DNA of 43,592 nt. Origin: a virus. Both the position numbers and the translations under genes were made by a program. The stretch covers positions 1 through 43,592 of IMG/VR virus record IMGVR_UViG_3300047455_000250, one strand, 5' to 3'. Shown here piece after piece: positions 5,529 to 24,414 of the stretch; within the stretch, counting starts at the first letter, position 1, and every line of letters begins with the position of its first letter. Under the pieces are notes generated by a model. The model saw nothing but the letters and a program-made list of their open reading frames with translations, did no database searches and was not told the origin of the DNA.

Positions 5529-8500
5529 ATGGCTATTGAAAATGAAGGAATAAATGAAAACGAATTACTAGGTCGTGACTATCGGTGGCAGTATCTTCAG
5601 AATATTGGTGTGAAGCGGATTAGTGGTACACAACTTCTTACTGAAGGTATGGAACCTAAATGGCTGTACTTCATTACTAGTATTGATTCTTTAGCAGTAT
5701 TAGTAAAAGACACTGTTGAAACATATTGGGCAGGGGCTTTTGGACAACCAGTTGCAGGTAGTAATACTCTTCGTGACACCTTGATACCATTTGAAGAACA
5801 ACGCTATTACAGCACTGAAGATAATGTGGCATACATTTATCGTGGAGGTAGTTGGGTAGGTGTATCTGACGGCAGCACCAATATCCGCAGTCCTGAGTAC
5901 GTCAGTATTGATAGTAGTCGTACTGTTGCGGTAGGTCGTAAGTACATTGTTACTGATGATGCCACTATCACACTTCCAACTGATGAAGTTGAAGATGGTC
6001 ATGTAGTAGAAATTGAGCCAGTTAATGGTGCCAATGTTGATATTGCAGGTACTCTTTATTTTGATGGTTCCAACGAGTCAGTGATTGATACTACTGGCAG
6101 TGCTATCTATCGCTGTATCTGGAGTGTTGATAAGTGGTACATTTTCACTAGTCTTATCCCTAGTGATGAAATTGAAGCAGCAGTATCTCAATGTACCATT
6201 TCCGCACAAACAGCACTTGATGCAGCGGAAGCAGCGGAAATGTCAGAGTTTAATTCTGCTGACCATGCAGCCACTGCACAAGAAGCCGCAGCAGTTGCCA
6301 GTAGTCCCCTTGTCTACTACGGTGCTTGGGATGCTAGCGGTGGTACACTTCCTAGTGCTCCAACTAGTGGTAACGGTGTGTGGCTTATTAGTGTTGCAGG
6401 TGACCTTACAGGTGCAAGTCCCTATACCAATGCAGCAGTTGGTCACACACTTGTCTATCGTGAGGCTGACACAAGTTGGACATTACTTCCTACTAATATC
6501 AGTGTCCAGTCTGTTAATGGCAAAACTGGTGCAGTAACTCTCACTGCTAGTGATGTAGGTGCATTACCTGATAGTAATGTAGTAGGTCCTAATGGTGCTC
6601 CAGTAATGTTAGAAGGCGCTTTTGGGGGTCCTACTGGAAGCCAGACATTCTTCCATACTGGCAACTTCACTCCTAGTAATTATGTTACATGGGCAGCAGC
6701 AGGTACCAGTGGACGTGCTGTATTTGAAGCTGCAACAGTAGCGGACATTAAAGCACTTCTACAATATGGAACTGCTGCAAGCCGAAATGTCGGCACTGCT
6801 AATAGCACAAACATTCCTGATATTGCAATACTGAATCAGCGACTTGGGACTACTGGTAACTTATCAGAAGCAGCATCCCGTGCAGTTACTGGTACTGGCG
6901 CTTTGATGACAGTAGGATTTGAAGGCTTCGGGGGTACAGCCATTGAGGAAAGTTGGGATGAAGCTGTCACTGGTAATGGTTTCCGTTACAGTGTCAGTGC
7001 GTCACCCCTCACTGGTCGCAGCTTTAGCGGACTTAATGTACTAGGTAATGAACGTGGGTTCCAGTTTAACGCTGAGAACAGTCGTTGGTTTGGACGTACA
7101 TTTACTAGTGGTAGTGGATTCACTCCTGATAATTGGTATGAATTTGCTACTATTGACGGCACTCGTGACAATTTGCGAGTGGACGTTCATGGTGGTGATG
7201 CCGATAACTATATCTATCTTGGCAGTTTCAATGTAACCTCCAGTGTTGCCAATTTACCCATAGCACTTGATGGAGAGTTGGATGTTGGTGGTGTTGACAG
7301 TGATGCTAGTGGTGGAGGACGTTGTGTTCAGAAATTCGTACCATTTAGTAACACTGGTGTTGAGTTCTATGTTCGTAGTAAGCTCAATGGCACATTTAGT
7401 CCATGGCGTAAGTACAGTAACCTAGGCACACTAGGCAGTGCTGCGGAAGAGGATGTTACCACTTTTGTCGCAGGAAGTTGGGAAGCTGTTGATGCTGCAA
7501 GTTTCCGTAGTTATATGGGACATGGCACTGCCAGTACGTATAATGTAGGCACAGCAGAAGATGAACTTGTTACTAATGCTACACTTGACAGCAAGATTGG
7601 CACACTTGGTACAGCAGCATCTAAAAATGTTGGCACTGCGGCAGGTGAAGTTCCTCTTAACAGTGACCTCAATATTAGTAATTGGAACACAGCTTATGGA
7701 TGGGGTAATCATGCCAGTGCAGGATATGCAGTTGCCAGTAATTTAGGAAATTTGGCTACTAGAGATACTATCAATAATGCTCACTGGTTAGGTACTGACC
7801 TCAGTGTTGCCAATGGTGGTACTGGAGCTAGTACACAATCAGGCGCACGTAGTAACCTAGGATTAAAAAGTGCAGCTACTAGGGATGTTGGTACTAATAG
7901 CGGGGATGTCGTTACTCAAAACGGAACGCTTATCTCGGGTTATCAACAGCTTTACTTTACTGGGATCACTTACGTTGGCGACTGGGGTGTTGATTTAAAC
8001 AATTCTGACATTATTGGTGCAAATTCAATAATCTTTGCTGATGAATCATCTGGAGTTAATGAGGGGTTGTTATTCCCCAAATCTGGCAGTGCGACACAAA
8101 CATTGTCTGACTACTCTAGGATTTCCTCTTATGGATCGGAGCTGGTATTCTCTCCGACTGCTGGAGGGTCGGATTATAATATTTGGGGAAAGCACAACCT
8201 TTCTAGCCCAATGACAACTAATACTAATCAAACGGTTGCAGGAGATAAAAAATTTACGGGATTAGTAGGGATAGGTGAAACTGTTGCACATGTAGCATTT
8301 AATTTAGACTATGCGCCTCCTAGTGGATTTGCAGCAGCTATATTTAGACACAGAGGAGAGGGAAATGCTAATGGTTACATATTTGATATAGATAACATTG
8401 GAGGGTCATATTTAGTTGACTTCAGGCGAGGCAACTCAAGCGTTGCAAGAATTGAAGCAACAGGTAATGTGATAGCAGCCAACTACTATCCAACTTCCTC

Positions 8501-8825
8501 TGACCAACGCCTGAAAAACAAACTACGTCCAGTAGTGATTAACTACCGTCAGGCAGCAGCACTACAAAGTTGGGTGTTCCAGTGGAAAGACATTGAAGCA
8601 GTGCTAGAGAGTCAACGAGGTAAACTGGAAATTGGTCTTATGGCGCAGGAAGTAATGGAAGTATTTCCTCCTAGTGAATATCCATCACTGGTAATTAAAA
8701 AGGACAATGGCTACTACACTATTGACCCTGATAAAATCCTGATGATGCGAGTATTTGCTAAAGTTGAGCCTCGACTAGTAACGTGGTTCAAAGACTTCAA
8801 GCGTTGGCTGAAAGGAGGTGCATAA
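5529..8825 (+). CDS. Tail fibre with self-cleaving S74 chaperone domain
   Basis: This 1,098-residue protein is the receptor-binding fibre. The N-terminal part (about 1-220) is the probable attachment region. The middle contains repeated fibre-type units such as LGTAASKNVGTA around residues 410-790. The C-terminus is a peptidase S74 intramolecular chaperone: SSDQRLK at 990-996 gives Ser991 and Lys996, matching the Ser-Lys dyad that cuts the chaperone off after trimer folding in endosialidase-type fibres. Residues about 785-985 (bases 7,880-8,480) use TCN serine codons rather than the genome's favoured AGT and hold two of the five GATC sites, so this segment looks recently acquired. The stop overlaps the next start. 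Confidence 0.9.
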   Translation: MAIENEGINENELLGRDYRWQYLQNIGVKRISGTQLLTEGMEPKWLYFITSIDSLAVLVKDTVETYWAGAFGQPVAGSNTLRDTLIPFEEQRYYSTEDNVAYIYRGGSWVGVSDGSTNIRSPEYVSIDSSRTVAVGRKYIVTDDATITLPTDEVEDGHVVEIEPVNGANVDIAGTLYFDGSNESVIDTTGSAIYRCIWSVDKWYIFTSLIPSDEIEAAVSQCTISAQTALDAAEAAEMSEFNSADHAATAQEAAAVASSPLVYYGAWDASGGTLPSAPTSGNGVWLISVAGDLTGASPYTNAAVGHTLVYREADTSWTLLPTNISVQSVNGKTGAVTLTASDVGALPDSNVVGPNGAPVMLEGAFGGPTGSQTFFHTGNFTPSNYVTWAAAGTSGRAVFEAATVADIKALLQYGTAASRNVGTANSTNIPDIAILNQRLGTTGNLSEAASRAVTGTGALMTVGFEGFGGTAIEESWDEAVTGNGFRYSVSASPLTGRSFSGLNVLGNERGFQFNAENSRWFGRTFTSGSGFTPDNWYEFATIDGTRDNLRVDVHGGDADNYIYLGSFNVTSSVANLPIALDGELDVGGVDSDASGGGRCVQKFVPFSNTGVEFYVRSKLNGTFSPWRKYSNLGTLGSAAEEDVTTFVAGSWEAVDAASFRSYMGHGTASTYNVGTAEDELVTNATLDSKIGTLGTAASKNVGTAAGEVPLNSDLNISNWNTAYGWGNHASAGYAVASNLGNLATRDTINNAHWLGTDLSVANGGTGASTQSGARSNLGLKSAATRDVGTNSGDVVTQNGTLISGYQQLYFTGITYVGDWGVDLNNSDIIGANSIIFADESSGVNEGLLFPKSGSATQTLSDYSRISSYGSELVFSPTAGGSDYNIWGKHNLSSPMTTNTNQTVAGDKKFTGLVGIGETVAHVAFNLDYAPPSGFAAAIFRHRGEGNANGYIFDIDNIGGSYLVDFRRGNSSVARIEATGNVIAANYYPTSSDQRLKNKLRPVVINYRQAAALQSWVFQWKDIEAVLESQRGKLEIGLMAQEVMEVFPPSEYPSLVIKKDNGYYTIDPDKILMMRVFAKVEPRLVTWFKDFKRWLKGGA

Positions 8826-9451
8826 TGGCTACTGGTTATCATTTCCGTGATGGTGCTGACTTTGACAGCAGGTGCGCAACTCGTGATGGTGGCTCTCTCC
8901 CTATTAGTGAGAGTGCCTACCGTCTTGCTAATAACAGCCAGTTAATGCACAGATATGCTTCTACTGATGTTGGACCATCTGCACTGTCAGTATTTGGTGA
9001 GAGCGGGTTTCATGCTAGTAATGGTAATGATATAGCATCGGGGTTGTGTGCTAGGCTGAGAAATTGTATACCTGCTAATGTTCCAAGTGCAATAGCCGTC
9101 ACAACTCAGCAACTTTCTGCTTATGCTAATATCACTTTCATGAACGATGGTAGAGTACGAAGAACAGTGGGAGATTCTAGCGCTCCCAGTACTACTACTA
9201 CATACCCTACCCGTTGGGGTAACTCTCAGGTTAGTGGAGGAAGTTTTCAAGTTAGATTCACATTACTATCAGGAAACGTTAGTGGATCTTTTGGGAGTTG
9301 GCTTTCTCTTAGCTCCAGTAGAGGAGTGTCCTGTAATGTATCACCAGGAAGATCACAGGGAGGCAGGGTTCGTGCTGAGTGGCGTTATGGTGGTTTCGGT
9401 ACTATCTTCTCAGATGAATTTGATGTTGAAGCTACCAGTGGAATAAAATAA
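8825..9451 (+). CDS. Fibre-associated tip protein (probable)
   Basis: A 208-residue protein starting at the ATG that overlaps the fibre stop (TAATG) behind a strong AAAGGAGG site. A longer reading from 8783 has no such site. The first 55 residues use the genome's normal codons. From about residue 60 the codon use changes and GATC sites appear at 9285 and 9351. The C-terminal 60 residues, with GSFGSWLSLSSSRG followed by short beta strands, recall a small beta-sandwich module found in phage tail and fibre proteins (from memory). A conserved anchor with an exchanged tip is the best reading, and it may contact the receptor or assist the fibre. Confidence 0.6.
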   Translation: MATGYHFRDGADFDSRCATRDGGSLPISESAYRLANNSQLMHRYASTDVGPSALSVFGESGFHASNGNDIASGLCARLRNCIPANVPSAIAVTTQQLSAYANITFMNDGRVRRTVGDSSAPSTTTTYPTRWGNSQVSGGSFQVRFTLLSGNVSGSFGSWLSLSSSRGVSCNVSPGRSQGGRVRAEWRYGGFGTIFSDEFDVEATSGIK

Positions 9452-9491: not shown

Positions 9492-9785
9492 ATGGCTGAG
9501 CCAGCGGCAGCAGTATCCCTTACCATCTACCAAGTCATTATGATAGTTGGTATTGTTATTGCTGCCTTTTGGGTATTGCACATGGCAATAGTCAATCACA
9601 AGATTAACGCTATTAATGACAAAATCAAAGGTGTTGAAGACAATGTATTTTCTAAGTTGAGGGAAGTTAACAGTCAGCTTGAAGGAATCAACACTACTAT
9701 TACTGAAGTTCACACTTTGTACCATGATTTAGACAAGCAGGTTGCAGTATCAGAAGCAACAAAACAGAGAGGCAAAGATGCGTAG
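9492..9785 (+). CDS. Membrane-anchored coiled-coil protein, inner spanin-like
   Basis: A 97-residue protein with one N-terminal membrane segment (about residues 9-33, rich in Ile, Val and Ala) followed by a long coiled-coil with regular hydrophobic spacing. This single-anchor plus coiled-coil layout matches inner-membrane spanins, which join the membranes at the last step of lysis of Gram-negative hosts. A clear GGAGG site lies ten bases before the ATG. The endolysin is further downstream on the same strand. No outer-membrane partner is obvious next to it. A minor tail or holin-like role is the alternative. Confidence 0.5.
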   Translation: MAEPAAAVSLTIYQVIMIVGIVIAAFWVLHMAIVNHKINAINDKIKGVEDNVFSKLREVNSQLEGINTTITEVHTLYHDLDKQVAVSEATKQRGKDA

Positions 9786-10251
9786 CAAAGACACTACTAT
9801 TGTAAGTATTCATGACAAGTCTATGACTGTGAGTGTATTCAGAGAAGCACTAGAGCGGGAAGGATTTAATGTTAGGGATATTGATTATGAGGACTTTGTA
9901 GCTCATAAATGTCCGTTACCTGTTGATACTGCGTGTGTTCTTATAGATGCTGACAATCTCAACGTGGAAGGTGTAGTCAAACAAGTTGATATGATATTCC
10001 CTGATACTACCATAGTTGTGGTGAGTGGGAAGTTTACTACTGATGACTATGGACCGATAGCAGGGATTAAGGTTATCAAAGTTCGGAAACCTGTTAGTGA
10101 CCACACCATTGCACGAATTGTGGATACCACTACTAAATACAGGGCAGTAACTCAGAGTATGCGCCTAGTGCATATAAGTACTGCTAAACTTCAAGACTAT
10201 ATCAAAGGAGTCACTGATGAGCACGACTCGGATAAAGTTAGCAGTAGATAA
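9778..10251 (+). CDS. Receiver-domain-like protein (CheY fold, degenerate)
   Basis: A 157-residue protein starting at the ATG behind AGAGAGG and overlapping the previous gene by eight bases. A longer start at 9742 lacks a site. Residues 7-118 follow the order of a response-regulator receiver domain: first strand and acidic pocket (TIVSIHDK, only Asp13 kept), second helix (FREALEREGF), phosphoacceptor strand (VLIDAD, Asp57 or Asp59), the Ser/Thr position (VVVSGK, Ser83), and the Lys-Pro pair (KVRKPV, Lys104-Pro105). Residues 120-157 are an extra helical tail. The missing second acidic-pocket residue suggests it may not be phosphorylated. A receiver-like protein among tail genes is unusual, and its role is unknown. 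Confidence 0.55.
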   Translation: MRSKDTTIVSIHDKSMTVSVFREALEREGFNVRDIDYEDFVAHKCPLPVDTACVLIDADNLNVEGVVKQVDMIFPDTTIVVVSGKFTTDDYGPIAGIKVIKVRKPVSDHTIARIVDTTTKYRAVTQSMRLVHISTAKLQDYIKGVTDEHDSDKVSSR

Positions 10252-12013
10252 GCGTGGGAAGTTTGTTGCAGCCGAGTTGCAGGGGCAGGAGATTCAAACC
10301 TCCTACTCCTCACCCTCTCTGCAAACACAGCCAGAAGTTATCTACACTCGCAACTTAGTGCCACTTCCTAATGGAATCCGCAGTCTTAATGAGATTGCGG
10401 AATTTGATGATAGCGGCAATCTCATGCCAACTATTAAGAATGGCTACGGTAACAATGTTCACAACGGTAAGCCACTAGGTCTACACTCCTTCATTGATGG
10501 AGAAGGTCGGTATCGGTATTACTTCGTGGAAATGGCAGCAAGTACTAATGATACTCTTCATGGATACTTTTATCACTTAGGCAACAATCTACTAGAGAAG
10601 TTCATGGAGCGTCCTTATGATAGTGAGGATGATGACCCTGACCTTCGCCATACTATCTTCCAGACACGCAGCCTGTTCTTAAAGGATGCAAGCACTACTT
10701 TGACTTGGCCTACTGGTGCTGTCCTTGAAGGTGATACTACTGCGGATGAAGCATTCATTGAAATCAGTGGTGATGCTCCTACTGTTACATACTACGCTCC
10801 TTCTGGAATTATCTTTGACCCTCAAGAAACACCTGATGAAACAGTCAAGGGTGGTATTAGTAGCTTCGGCAACTACCTACTCACGTGGGATGAAAATCGT
10901 ATCTACTGGTGTAATCCACTGGACTTTACTGATTGGACTATCAGTAATGCAGGAGGTGGTAGCACTCAGATAAGTGAAGCACGTGGAGCTATCCTGACAG
11001 TAGTTCCTGCTACTGATGGTATCATGGTGTACTGCAAAGGTAATGTAGTGTATGGAGCCTTTAGTGGAGATGCTACCAATCCATGGATATTCAGCGAGGT
11101 GGAAGGCAGTGGTGGACTCATTGCAGTAGGGGGCAACAAGCTAGTAACACGTGACCCTGAAACTAGTACACAAATTGCACTGACTACAAAGGGAATGATA
11201 CAGATACAGCAGGACAGAGCACAGGCACTTCCTCCGGAAATCAACTATTTCCTTAGTGGCAACAGTGTTGACTTTAAACCTGACGGCAGTATCACCGTCG
11301 AGAAGCTCCAAATAGATAGTGGTGCAGGTGTAGCACGTACTATTGTTCGTAATTTATTTCTACGGCAGAACACACTACTAATCTATTGCGGTGAAGTTGT
11401 CCCTAAAGTGGATAACATTGAAAACTCACGGTTACTGATATACAATTTAGATACTGGTTCAGTCGGAGTAATAGAAGGTGACATTCCTGCGCTCTCTCAA
11501 CGAGTAGATGTAACTCGATTATCAGATGTTACTGATGCGCAAAATGCTTCACTTCCTGGATTACTATCGCATCAATTTGCAATGGTGAAGCGTATTGTTA
11601 CCAATCCTAATCAGGACGGTAATTTCCAGTATGAGATAGCAATGAGGATTCTTGACCTTGCTAATACTAGCTTACCACAACCTCCAATGGCAGAAGGTCA
11701 GGAAATTTTTGGATTTGCTCCTAGTCAGGTAGTGATAGGTGACATTAGTGTTAGTCCTGACAGGCTTACTGAAATCCACAGTGTTCGCATTATTGGACAG
11801 AACACTGATAAATTCGGAAATCATCCTGCTACTGTTAGAGTTTACAGTGAAGAGGAATATGGTGCTACTGCTCCTGTCACTTTCTACTGGAATGCAGACC
11901 GCAAGCTGTATCAAGGCTATGCTACTGGCGGTGATTTGCGTATTGAGATTGAAGGTTACTACCTTTACGTCACACATATTGAAGTAGAAATATCCAGAGG
12001 TGCTAGTAGATGA
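10217..12013 (+). CDS. Tail hub/nozzle beta-propeller protein (tail tube B-like)
   Basis: A 598-residue beta-rich protein in the position of podovirus tail tube B or DNA-stabilisation hub proteins. Repeated short strands with tryptophan and tyrosine (for example YLLTWDENRIYWCNP near residues 220-235) suggest a propeller that plugs the tail nozzle. The start is set by AAAGGAG seven bases upstream and overlaps the previous gene. The stop overlaps the next start (ATGA). Confidence 0.6.
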   Translation: MSTTRIKLAVDKRGKFVAAELQGQEIQTSYSSPSLQTQPEVIYTRNLVPLPNGIRSLNEIAEFDDSGNLMPTIKNGYGNNVHNGKPLGLHSFIDGEGRYRYYFVEMAASTNDTLHGYFYHLGNNLLEKFMERPYDSEDDDPDLRHTIFQTRSLFLKDASTTLTWPTGAVLEGDTTADEAFIEISGDAPTVTYYAPSGIIFDPQETPDETVKGGISSFGNYLLTWDENRIYWCNPLDFTDWTISNAGGGSTQISEARGAILTVVPATDGIMVYCKGNVVYGAFSGDATNPWIFSEVEGSGGLIAVGGNKLVTRDPETSTQIALTTKGMIQIQQDRAQALPPEINYFLSGNSVDFKPDGSITVEKLQIDSGAGVARTIVRNLFLRQNTLLIYCGEVVPKVDNIENSRLLIYNLDTGSVGVIEGDIPALSQRVDVTRLSDVTDAQNASLPGLLSHQFAMVKRIVTNPNQDGNFQYEIAMRILDLANTSLPQPPMAEGQEIFGFAPSQVVIGDISVSPDRLTEIHSVRIIGQNTDKFGNHPATVRVYSEEEYGATAPVTFYWNADRKLYQGYATGGDLRIEIEGYYLYVTHIEVEISRGASR

Positions 12014-12183
12014 TACGTTCTAATATGGTAAAGCAACTTCCTCCACGACACAAACTTACCAATAGTGAGGAGGAATCACAACAGCTTCTTAAAATTGTTA
12101 ATCAGCAGACTACTTTAATAAAGGCATTAGTAGCTGATGTTAAGGAGCTTGAGCAGCGAATACAGACACTGGAGAATCCTTAA
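12010..12183 (+). CDS. Small coiled-coil protein, 57 residues
   Basis: A short gene that fits exactly between its neighbours: its ATG overlaps the upstream stop (ATGA at 12010-12013) and its TAA overlaps the downstream ATG (TAATG at 12181-12185). The protein begins MIRSNMVKQLPPRHKL. From residue 20 it is a likely coiled coil with leucine and isoleucine at heptad spacing, ending VKELEQRIQTLENP. I do not recognise it. Its place between the tail hub and the endolysin suggests a tail needle, lysis accessory or minor tail part, with no direct evidence for any. Confidence 0.7.
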   Translation: MIRSNMVKQLPPRHKLTNSEEESQQLLKIVNQQTTLIKALVADVKELEQRIQTLENP

Positions 12184-12668
12184 TGATAGAATTTAATCCA
12201 AACAATCGTTACAGCAAGAGCAGTGCTGATAAGTTGGAAGGAGCCGCAGTACCACTTCAAAACATTTTCCGTGAGCTTCTACATTACCTAGACCACGGTA
12301 TTATTGAAACGGAGCGCAGTGATGAAAAGCAACTTGAACTGTATAATAGTGGGCTGTCACACATTAAGTCTGGTGGCAAACACAACCAATCACCTAGTAG
12401 AGCCGTTGACTTTTACTTGTGGTACGCACCATTTAAAACATATCTTACAACTGACCAGAAAGTTCTCGATAAGATTACTTCTATCACTGGAAGTAGTGAA
12501 GAAGAAGTTCGGGAGTGGATTCGCAGTATGTATGGTATGGCTTATGCACTACTATCACTGTTCGCCCAAGCTGAAGGTGTTACCATCAGATGGGGAGGCA
12601 AGTGGAATAAGCACGGTATTATTGACCAAGAGTTTGATGACTTCTTCCATATAGAACTAGTAGATTAA
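12183..12668 (+). CDS. Endolysin, M15-family peptidoglycan peptidase
   Basis: This 161-residue enzyme would cut the peptide stems of host peptidoglycan at lysis. The zinc-binding frame of M15 (VanY/L-alanyl-D-glutamate peptidase) endolysins is visible: His67 and Asp76 in KHNQSPSRAVDFY, and His156 in FFHIEL. The length is typical of single-domain M15 endolysins. There is no signal peptide, so it needs a holin. The best holin candidate (23836-24414) is on the other strand. Its ATG overlaps the stop of the small coiled-coil gene. Confidence 0.87.
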   Translation: MIEFNPNNRYSKSSADKLEGAAVPLQNIFRELLHYLDHGIIETERSDEKQLELYNSGLSHIKSGGKHNQSPSRAVDFYLWYAPFKTYLTTDQKVLDKITSITGSSEEEVREWIRSMYGMAYALLSLFAQAEGVTIRWGGKWNKHGIIDQEFDDFFHIELVD

Positions 12669-23835: not shown

Positions 23836-24414
23836 TTACTTCTTTACTGATTTAGTAAAGGCTGACTTAATACTATCTTTAGCTTTACTTCCAAGACTGC
23901 TACCAAAGTAGAATGATAACACCTTAGTACGCTCTTGAAGAAGGTTGCCAACAACGATACCAACAAGGTTAGCAATCAATGCCAGTAGGTTGGCACGTTC
24001 CTGTAAGTAAAACATACAGACAACTTGGATGCCTACTGCAATCAACACAAAGAATATGTTATAGCGCATTACATTCTTTGCGAGTGCGTTGGTAGTAGGG
24101 TTGTTAGTCTGCTCATACATTTCACGAGCGTCAGCAACATCTTGTAAGTACTTCACTTCAAGGTCATGTTTATGAGTAGCGTACAGTTTCTGGAGTTGTG
24201 CCTGTGCCTCACTACTGGCTTCAAGCTGCCGCTGTATCTCCTCAGGGTCACGGTAAGTTTTACCAGTAGCAGCAGCAACAGCACGACTACCTAAGTCAAC
24301 TACATCCTTTGCTACTTCTGCTTTGGACTTATTATCCTTACCATCAAACAGGTCAATAACATCTGGTATTAGCTTAGCTATACCTAATGCACCACTTATA
24401 ATTCCTAGTGCCAT
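23836..24414 (-). CDS. Holin, three-transmembrane GTA-type (probable)
   Basis: A 192-residue protein with two clear membrane segments (about 118-137 and 142-159) and a possible N-terminal hydrophobic helix (1-20). The amphipathic helical middle and the ending SFYFGSSLGSK (167-177) recall the 3TM holin family first noted in gene transfer agents (PF11351, from memory). It would open the inner membrane for the endolysin at lysis. It is encoded leftward, more than 11 kb from the endolysin and on the opposite strand, which is uncommon. AGGAG lies before the ATG. Confidence 0.65.
   Translation of the reverse strand: MALGIISGALGIAKLIPDVIDLFDGKDNKSKAEVAKDVVDLGSRAVAAATGKTYRDPEEIQRQLEASSEAQAQLQKLYATHKHDLEVKYLQDVADAREMYEQTNNPTTNALAKNVMRYNIFFVLIAVGIQVVCMFYLQERANLLALIANLVGIVVGNLLQERTKVLSFYFGSSLGSKAKDSIKSAFTKSVKK

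Follow-up and report, generated by a model that had tools for sequence, protein, structure and literature searches.

A putative CheY-like receiver gene behind a gene for a membrane-tethered coiled coil in the late operon of a virus, and similar gene pairs in Alteromonas phages

The late operon of virus record IMGVR_UViG_3300047455_000250, which was analysed over its whole stretch of 43,592 nucleotides (the window), carries a 157-codon gene directly behind a short gene for a predicted membrane-tethered coiled coil, and gene pairs of this form recur in unrelated marine phages, in most of which they have lysis genes as neighbours. The best explanation that we can offer, and one for which we see even chances, is that the product is a divergent stand-alone CheY-like receiver which would act with the coil as a switch on the lysis machinery. 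The parts of this reading differ in strength: a receiver fold for the 157-residue protein is probable, the view that the window pair is of the same kind as the pairs of Alteromonas phages is somewhat favoured, and control of lysis by the pair is proposed tentatively. The strongest evidence for the reading is gene context. Phage lysis timing is usually ascribed to holins and their inhibitors; the pair may help to determine the timing of host lysis and, if the reading is true, a receiver tied to a membrane coil would be a direct line from the phosphorylation state of the host to the moment of lysis.

The genes concerned, all on the plus strand of the window, are the following.

5529-8825, plus strand: tail fibre of 1098 residues with a C-terminal Peptidase_S74 chaperone (Pfam E 1.1e-7; PHROGs tail fibre E 6.8e-10).
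8783-9451, plus strand: protein of 222 residues after the fibre, in a GTG frame with an in-frame ATG at 8825; no family match in Pfam or PHROGs.
9492-9785, plus strand: partner protein of 97 residues, predicted N-out/C-in, in which one N-terminal transmembrane (TM) helix at residues 16-34 precedes a charged coiled coil (hydropathy, charge).
9767-9772, plus strand: GAGAGG, probable ribosome-binding site of the receiver-like gene, within the end of the upstream gene (sequence read).
9778-10251, plus strand: receiver-like protein of 157 residues (translation, in-frame codon usage, receiver profiles, phmmer against the PDB).
10217-12013, plus strand: late protein of 598 residues, virion structural protein phrog_3287 (PHROGs E 3.9e-5, homologues in relatives).
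12183-12668, plus strand: endolysin-like protein, phrog_465 (PHROGs E 2.4e-17).

Positions 9778-10251 are a real late gene, because codon usage there is specific to the frame, a ribosome site precedes it and it overlaps its neighbours tightly on both sides. Translation confirmed the open frame of 157 codons described in an earlier note on this DNA, from the ATG at 9778 to the stop at 10249-10251; codon usage scores +0.096 per codon in this frame and -0.16 to -0.34 in the other five, and GAGAGG lies 5 bases before the ATG. The gene shares 8 bases at its start with the preceding 97-residue gene and 35 bases at its end with the one that follows (ATG 10217), the downstream start being backed by relatives, whose homologues start alike.

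The residues to which the earlier note had pointed (Asp13, Asp57, Asp59, Ser83 and Lys104-Pro105) are all present, and Asp13 is the sole residue of the acidic pocket, as it had said. The positions of interest are these.

9814-9816, plus strand: codon of Asp13, the only acidic-pocket residue kept, residue 12 being His (translation, alignment register).
9946-9948, plus strand: codon of Asp57, which follows strand 3 (VLID) and is the candidate phospho-acceptor (alignment register).
10024-10026, plus strand: codon of Ser83, at the receiver Thr/Ser position (alignments).
10087-10092, plus strand: codons of Lys104-Pro105, the receiver Lys-Pro (alignments).

After strand 1, where a receiver has two acids, the protein has one of the two (His12-Asp13); a Thr/Ser after strand 4 and a Lys-Pro after strand 5 are both there (Ser83, Lys104-Pro105), which alone does not discriminate. 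Asp57 stands in register with the invariant receiver Asp in two alignments and is displaced in a small MAFFT alignment. Judged by these residues, the protein is perhaps impaired in phosphorylation. As proof of a receiver the residue register was rejected: the protein matches 7 of 13 near-invariant receiver columns (MAFFT), a count equalled or exceeded by 61/300 shuffles and 32/300 phage ORFs, and it is not evidence because shuffled sequences align equally well. Also rejected was a hand-made spacing motif, defined after the protein had been seen and not relied on, which admitted 19 of 100,000 shuffles and one of 7,871 ORFs from the window together with related phages (the window's own), yet let through only 20 of 89 receivers from cells and 4 of 52 from viruses.

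Curated families in Pfam, NCBIfam and PHROGs gave no receiver match for the 157-residue protein. The Pfam receiver family PF00072 returned no row at E up to 1, its gathering score not being reached, and a scan of the whole window with it gave no match, the control genomes being matched in 14/14 cases. A known tail-protein family, the kind of match that the earlier note had set against its own reading, was found in neither PHROGs nor Pfam; the only row was phrog_31584, of unknown function, at E 0.013. The closest PDB sequence by phmmer (177,635 sequences) was the response regulator 2qxy, over residues 6-128, at E 0.1.

Five receiver profiles (rec, rec2, a5, mod and mod2) were made, and results are given for all. 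On a general profile of 89 cellular receivers (sources: eight E. coli proteins and 80 loci of bacteria and archaea), the protein scored 9.8 bits and ranked first of the 7,871 ORFs; this score was reached by 7/20,000 shuffles and, with two variants of the profile, the protein's score by 8 and 11 of 20,000. In a set of 708 E. coli ORFs, PyrR, a true receiver, scored 66.7 and the unrelated CaiC 9.8, a tie with our protein; the general profile therefore has a false-positive rate on real proteins that is too high to neglect. With a profile made from 12 phage receivers of the paired type described below, the protein scored 12.2 bits, a value attained by one of 20,000 shuffles, and again rank 1 of 7,871, with a close runner-up at 11.0 and all E. 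coli non-receivers at or below 5.8. An earlier phage profile of 9 rows was poorer (73/20,000 shuffles equalled or exceeded the protein, as did three other ORFs), and one of 10 rows did not detect it under ordinary search filters. HHalign against the paired phage receivers gave a probability of 8% and E 0.004, the weak alignments to receivers spanning residues 3-90 or 7-115, and identity to the receivers of phages A5 and V22 is 19-23%. By sequence, the receiver likeness of the protein appears weakly above chance. The label "receiver-like protein" given in the earlier note is thus probably right on the profiles and the gene context; the sequence evidence for it is weak, and the register on which it had leaned is uninformative.

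The earlier note had proposed structure prediction followed by a fold search. AlphaFold without an alignment returned a pLDDT of 39.2, and a structure search with that model, which matched no receiver, was discarded as meaningless. Supplied with 49 receivers as its alignment, AlphaFold gave a pLDDT of 88.6 and a pTM of 0.76; in this model the strands and helices follow one another as they do in a receiver, and residues 108-150 form a long helix at the C-terminal side. With this second model Foldseek placed receivers at the top of the PDB, with 2qxy fifth, and V22 gp30 third in BFVD; VIA-align against 3crn gave Z 17.0 and rmsd 2.0 over 120 aligned residues. The model is circular, since receivers served as its alignment, and it counts as compatibility only. 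Its best viral structural match, BFVD A0A516LRC2, is a protein of 153 residues, nameless in the tables, that may be another such phage receiver.

The absence of a family match and the poor single-sequence model both fit a different account, namely that the protein is no receiver but an accessory protein of alpha/beta type, an orphan whose gene fills a variable slot after the fibre genes. We regard this as rather unlikely: on receiver profiles the protein comes out at the top of 7,871 ORFs, the PDB sequence closest to it belongs to a receiver, and an N-terminal TM coil as its partner is what known phage receivers have, an arrangement seldom seen elsewhere.

A TM-coil gene followed by a gene for a stand-alone receiver was found in Alteromonas phages V22, A5, R9Y1, R8W, H4/4 and V19, and the pair follows the tail-fibre genes in all of these except V19. 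That phages have CheY-like genes is already known. In the accessible parts of the published descriptions, such a gene stands behind the tail fibre and its chaperone in V22, a myovirus, and in A5, of podoviral morphology (PMC10579305, PMC7289586); with the podoviruses R8W and H4/4 in addition, the earlier statement that receivers are not normal podovirus tail genes was too strong. The TM-coil and receiver pair as such was not mentioned in the literature searched, which was covered in part, nor does the available portion of the R9Y paper (PMC9430817) mention the pair, receivers or holins.

The other pairs that were measured (12/12) consist of a TM-coil gene of 93-125 residues placed -11 to +4 bases from a receiver gene of 147-153 residues, and the window pair also lies within this spacing (13/13). 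A charge pattern for N-out/C-in, with an N-terminal tail of net 0 or below and +1 or more past the TM helix, is likewise present in 13/13, the window partner having -1 in its N-terminal tail and +1 in the next 15 residues. Several of the 13 pairs are closely related. Pairs are not independent counts: locus L267 duplicates L266, and loci L268 and L269 are near-duplicates of R9Y1. Viral contigs with the pair are L262, L264, L265, L266, L267, L268 and L269, of which all except L267 entered the measurement; 10 contig loci had matched and the surroundings of 8 were examined, L261 being the V22 genome itself and L263 repeating the match of L262. L270 has an OmpR-type gene without the pair. Under criteria chosen after the pairs had been seen, a comparable TM-coil gene lies upstream of 3 of 421 other ORFs of 110-200 residues in related phages.

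The 97-residue partner answers to the same description, being the gene directly upstream, of 93-125 residues, with one N-terminal TM helix and a charged coil. The earlier note had called it spanin-like; that label was dropped because the Rz match in PHROGs is weak (E 0.16) and the predicted topology places the coil in the cytoplasm, and a membrane-tethered cytoplasmic coil, predicted N-out/C-in, describes the protein better. It has no significant sequence similarity to any of five other partners with which it was compared, and no common family spanning the TM-coil partners was found. A scan with cellular receivers gave 52 distinct receivers on viral contigs, of which 2 stand alone, and neither of these two has the coil; a general link between phage receivers and coils was rejected on this count, and the pairing therefore belongs to the Alteromonas-phage type. 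A further scan for more pair-bearing lineages found no phages beyond those given above.

In most of these phages there are lysis genes near the pair. In V22 an Rz-type spanin gene (PHROGs 7e-6) overlaps the receiver gene by 32 bases and is followed by a small membrane protein that we read as a holin, PHROGs giving it only unknown function (2.6e-4); A5 has counterparts, by sequence, of these genes that follow the V22 receiver, and an annotated endolysin further on. The order in R9Y1 is fibre, 121-residue TM-coil, 150-residue receiver and GH108 lysozyme, and in the Foturviruses R8W and H4/4 (Autographiviridae) it is fibre, holin, 98-residue one-TM protein, 153-residue receiver, another membrane protein and terminase. 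The V19 pair (L273:4227-4950) is an isolated unit on the strand opposite to its neighbours, among which no lysis gene was recognised. In the window the endolysin-like gene lies 1.9 kb downstream of the receiver-like gene, with the virion gene (10217-12013) in between. Of the three roles suggested earlier for the protein (signalling decoy, morphogenesis factor, lysis-timing regulator), the one related to lysis fits best because five isolates have the receiver gene in or beside lysis genes; a structural role obtained no supporting result.

Elsewhere in the window, outside the late operon, positions 23836-24414 on the minus strand encode a membrane protein of 192 residues (phrog_1544, unknown function, E 2.4e-18) that by eye is a possible holin. 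Before the fibre gene of V22 and of one contig (L258:8908-9231 and L262:2168-2488) there are small lipoprotein-like proteins with a HELMH motif, metalloprotease-like by eye.

A full acidic pocket, Asp, Ser and Lys are kept in 11/12 of the paired receivers. This conservation favours a view in which a phage receiver, soluble or held at the membrane, acts late in infection on a histidine kinase or phosphorelay of the host, draining or blocking it, as a decoy or auxiliary metabolic gene (AMG), and in the parts of the publications at hand V22 gp30 and A5 gp11 are indeed treated as class II AMGs and R8W gp48 as "PhoB". That view, which we consider unlikely though a little less so than the orphan protein discussed above, does not explain why the receivers are strictly paired with a membrane coil or why lysis genes lie close by, and V19, without a phospho-acceptor, and the window protein, without one acid, would be poor phosphate sinks. 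Some of the published labels are themselves doubtful because the proteins are too short: V22 ORF30 (L258:11750-12199) has 149 residues and R8W gp48 (L271:6001-6462) has 153, both being receivers without space for a kinase or DNA-binding domain, which suggests that "hybrid sensor histidine kinase" for the first and "DNA-binding PhoB" for the second are wrong. In the V19 receiver the phospho-Asp and the Lys are gone, and its PF00072 score is 29.9 bits against a cut-off of 30.2; decay therefore does occur within such pairs.

The window's terminase, capsid and portal are 41, 53 and 32% identical to those of Aeromonas phage P5, and by the same proteins the window is more distantly related to Pseudomonas phage PaP2 (Fredfastierviridae). 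The 157-residue protein has no homologue in 82 other loci (the best 80 of 217 capsid relatives, P5 and PaP2; best E 0.61), a distribution that also favours the orphan-protein account, as does the fact that its slot in relatives holds unrelated genes, among them holin-like ones by eye. Nor was a homologue found in six related records searched whole, among phages at E up to 0.01 (three chance-level records appear at E up to 10), among plasmids at E up to 10, or among viral and genome contigs, where the scans require exact 8-residue matches and miss distant relatives. The 97-residue partner has a homologue in the relative L004 (E 2.1e-4), and there the next late gene follows it immediately, without an intervening receiver gene. 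The receiver-like gene would thus be an addition at, or a loss from, the slot behind the fibre genes, because the nearest relatives are without it and the L004 coil homologue abuts the next late gene.

This distribution also bears on a role in tail or fibre morphogenesis, for which a protein with a receiver-like fold would serve as an assembly chaperone or as a minor component of the virion. The position of the gene does suit such a role, since in the late operon it has the fibre gene on one side and on the other a virion gene that it overlaps by 35 bases; the nearest relatives with the homologous downstream gene, however, all lack the 157-residue gene, and in V22 and A5, as far as the partial published accounts go, the receivers are beside the fibre chaperone gene yet separate from it, so that we consider such a role very improbable.

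Several other contents of the slot, or of the region just behind the fibre, were noted in relatives: in P5 a TM-coil gene just behind the fibre (L003:27421-27798) is followed by a repeat-rich protein of 193 residues that is not a receiver, L006:15266-16469 encodes a HELGH-motif protein, metalloprotease-like by eye, and a phospholipase-A2-like protein, also by eye, and L067:13118-13588 encodes a protein of 156 residues that is sigma-factor-like by eye.

In the explanation that we prefer, a receiver and coil switching lysis, the coil would contact the receiver and hold it at the inner membrane, and the pair would set when or whether holin, endolysin or spanins act. Host phosphodonors would tune the pair if its active site is intact; in copies with a decayed site, binding alone would do so. 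The phospho-acceptor lost from V19 and the acid lost from the window protein suggest that phosphotransfer is not essential in every copy. Counting against this explanation are the lack of a family match, the failed alignment-free model, the CaiC tie, His in place of the first acid, the register shift of Asp57, the dissimilarity of the partner to other partners, the L004 partner homologue without a receiver, the virion gene that comes next in the window and the V19 pair without a lysis neighbour. The widest form of the explanation, in which at least four unrelated groups of tailed phages carry a transferable TM-coil and receiver unit coupling host phosphorylation to lysis, the window's copy being far diverged and that of V19, with its decayed active site, working by binding alone, is somewhat doubtful, more so than lysis control by the pair itself.

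Among known systems the nearest are the Alteromonas phage receivers (V22 gp30, A5 gp11, R9Y1_12, R8W gp48, H4/4 gp44 and V19_00010), which have 147-153 residues, comprise a receiver domain and a tail of about 30 residues and, like the window's protein, are encoded directly behind a short gene for an N-terminal TM coiled coil. Unlike the receivers of V22, R9Y1, R8W and A5, which score 63-83 bits on PF00072 (79, 83, 77 and 63), with V19 at 29.9, the window protein goes undetected by Pfam. The Thermotoga maritima response regulator 2qxy is its closest PDB sequence, but at E 0.1, and is cellular. The releasin of phage Mu, gp25 (DUF2730), is described in the accessible text as a membrane-tethered cytoplasmic protein of 99 residues, N-out/C-in, that is needed for endolysin release (PMC9239132), and it shares with the 97-residue partner a single N-terminal TM helix and a cytoplasmic domain in the N-out/C-in arrangement, the releasin being in the lysis region. 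Unlike the releasin, the partner has no DUF2730 match (Pfam, E up to 1) and its tail is a coiled coil; no SAR endolysin was recognised in the window, in contrast to the Mu system, and that text mentions no receiver partner for Mu (PMC9239132). Finally, the divergent cREC receivers of jumbo phages, according to the part of the source available, act outside histidine-kinase systems and are linked to NAD/ADP-ribose enzymes (PMC7824862); they resemble the window in placing a receiver-type domain in a phage outside such systems, whereas the neighbours of the window's gene are a fibre, a TM-coil and virion genes.
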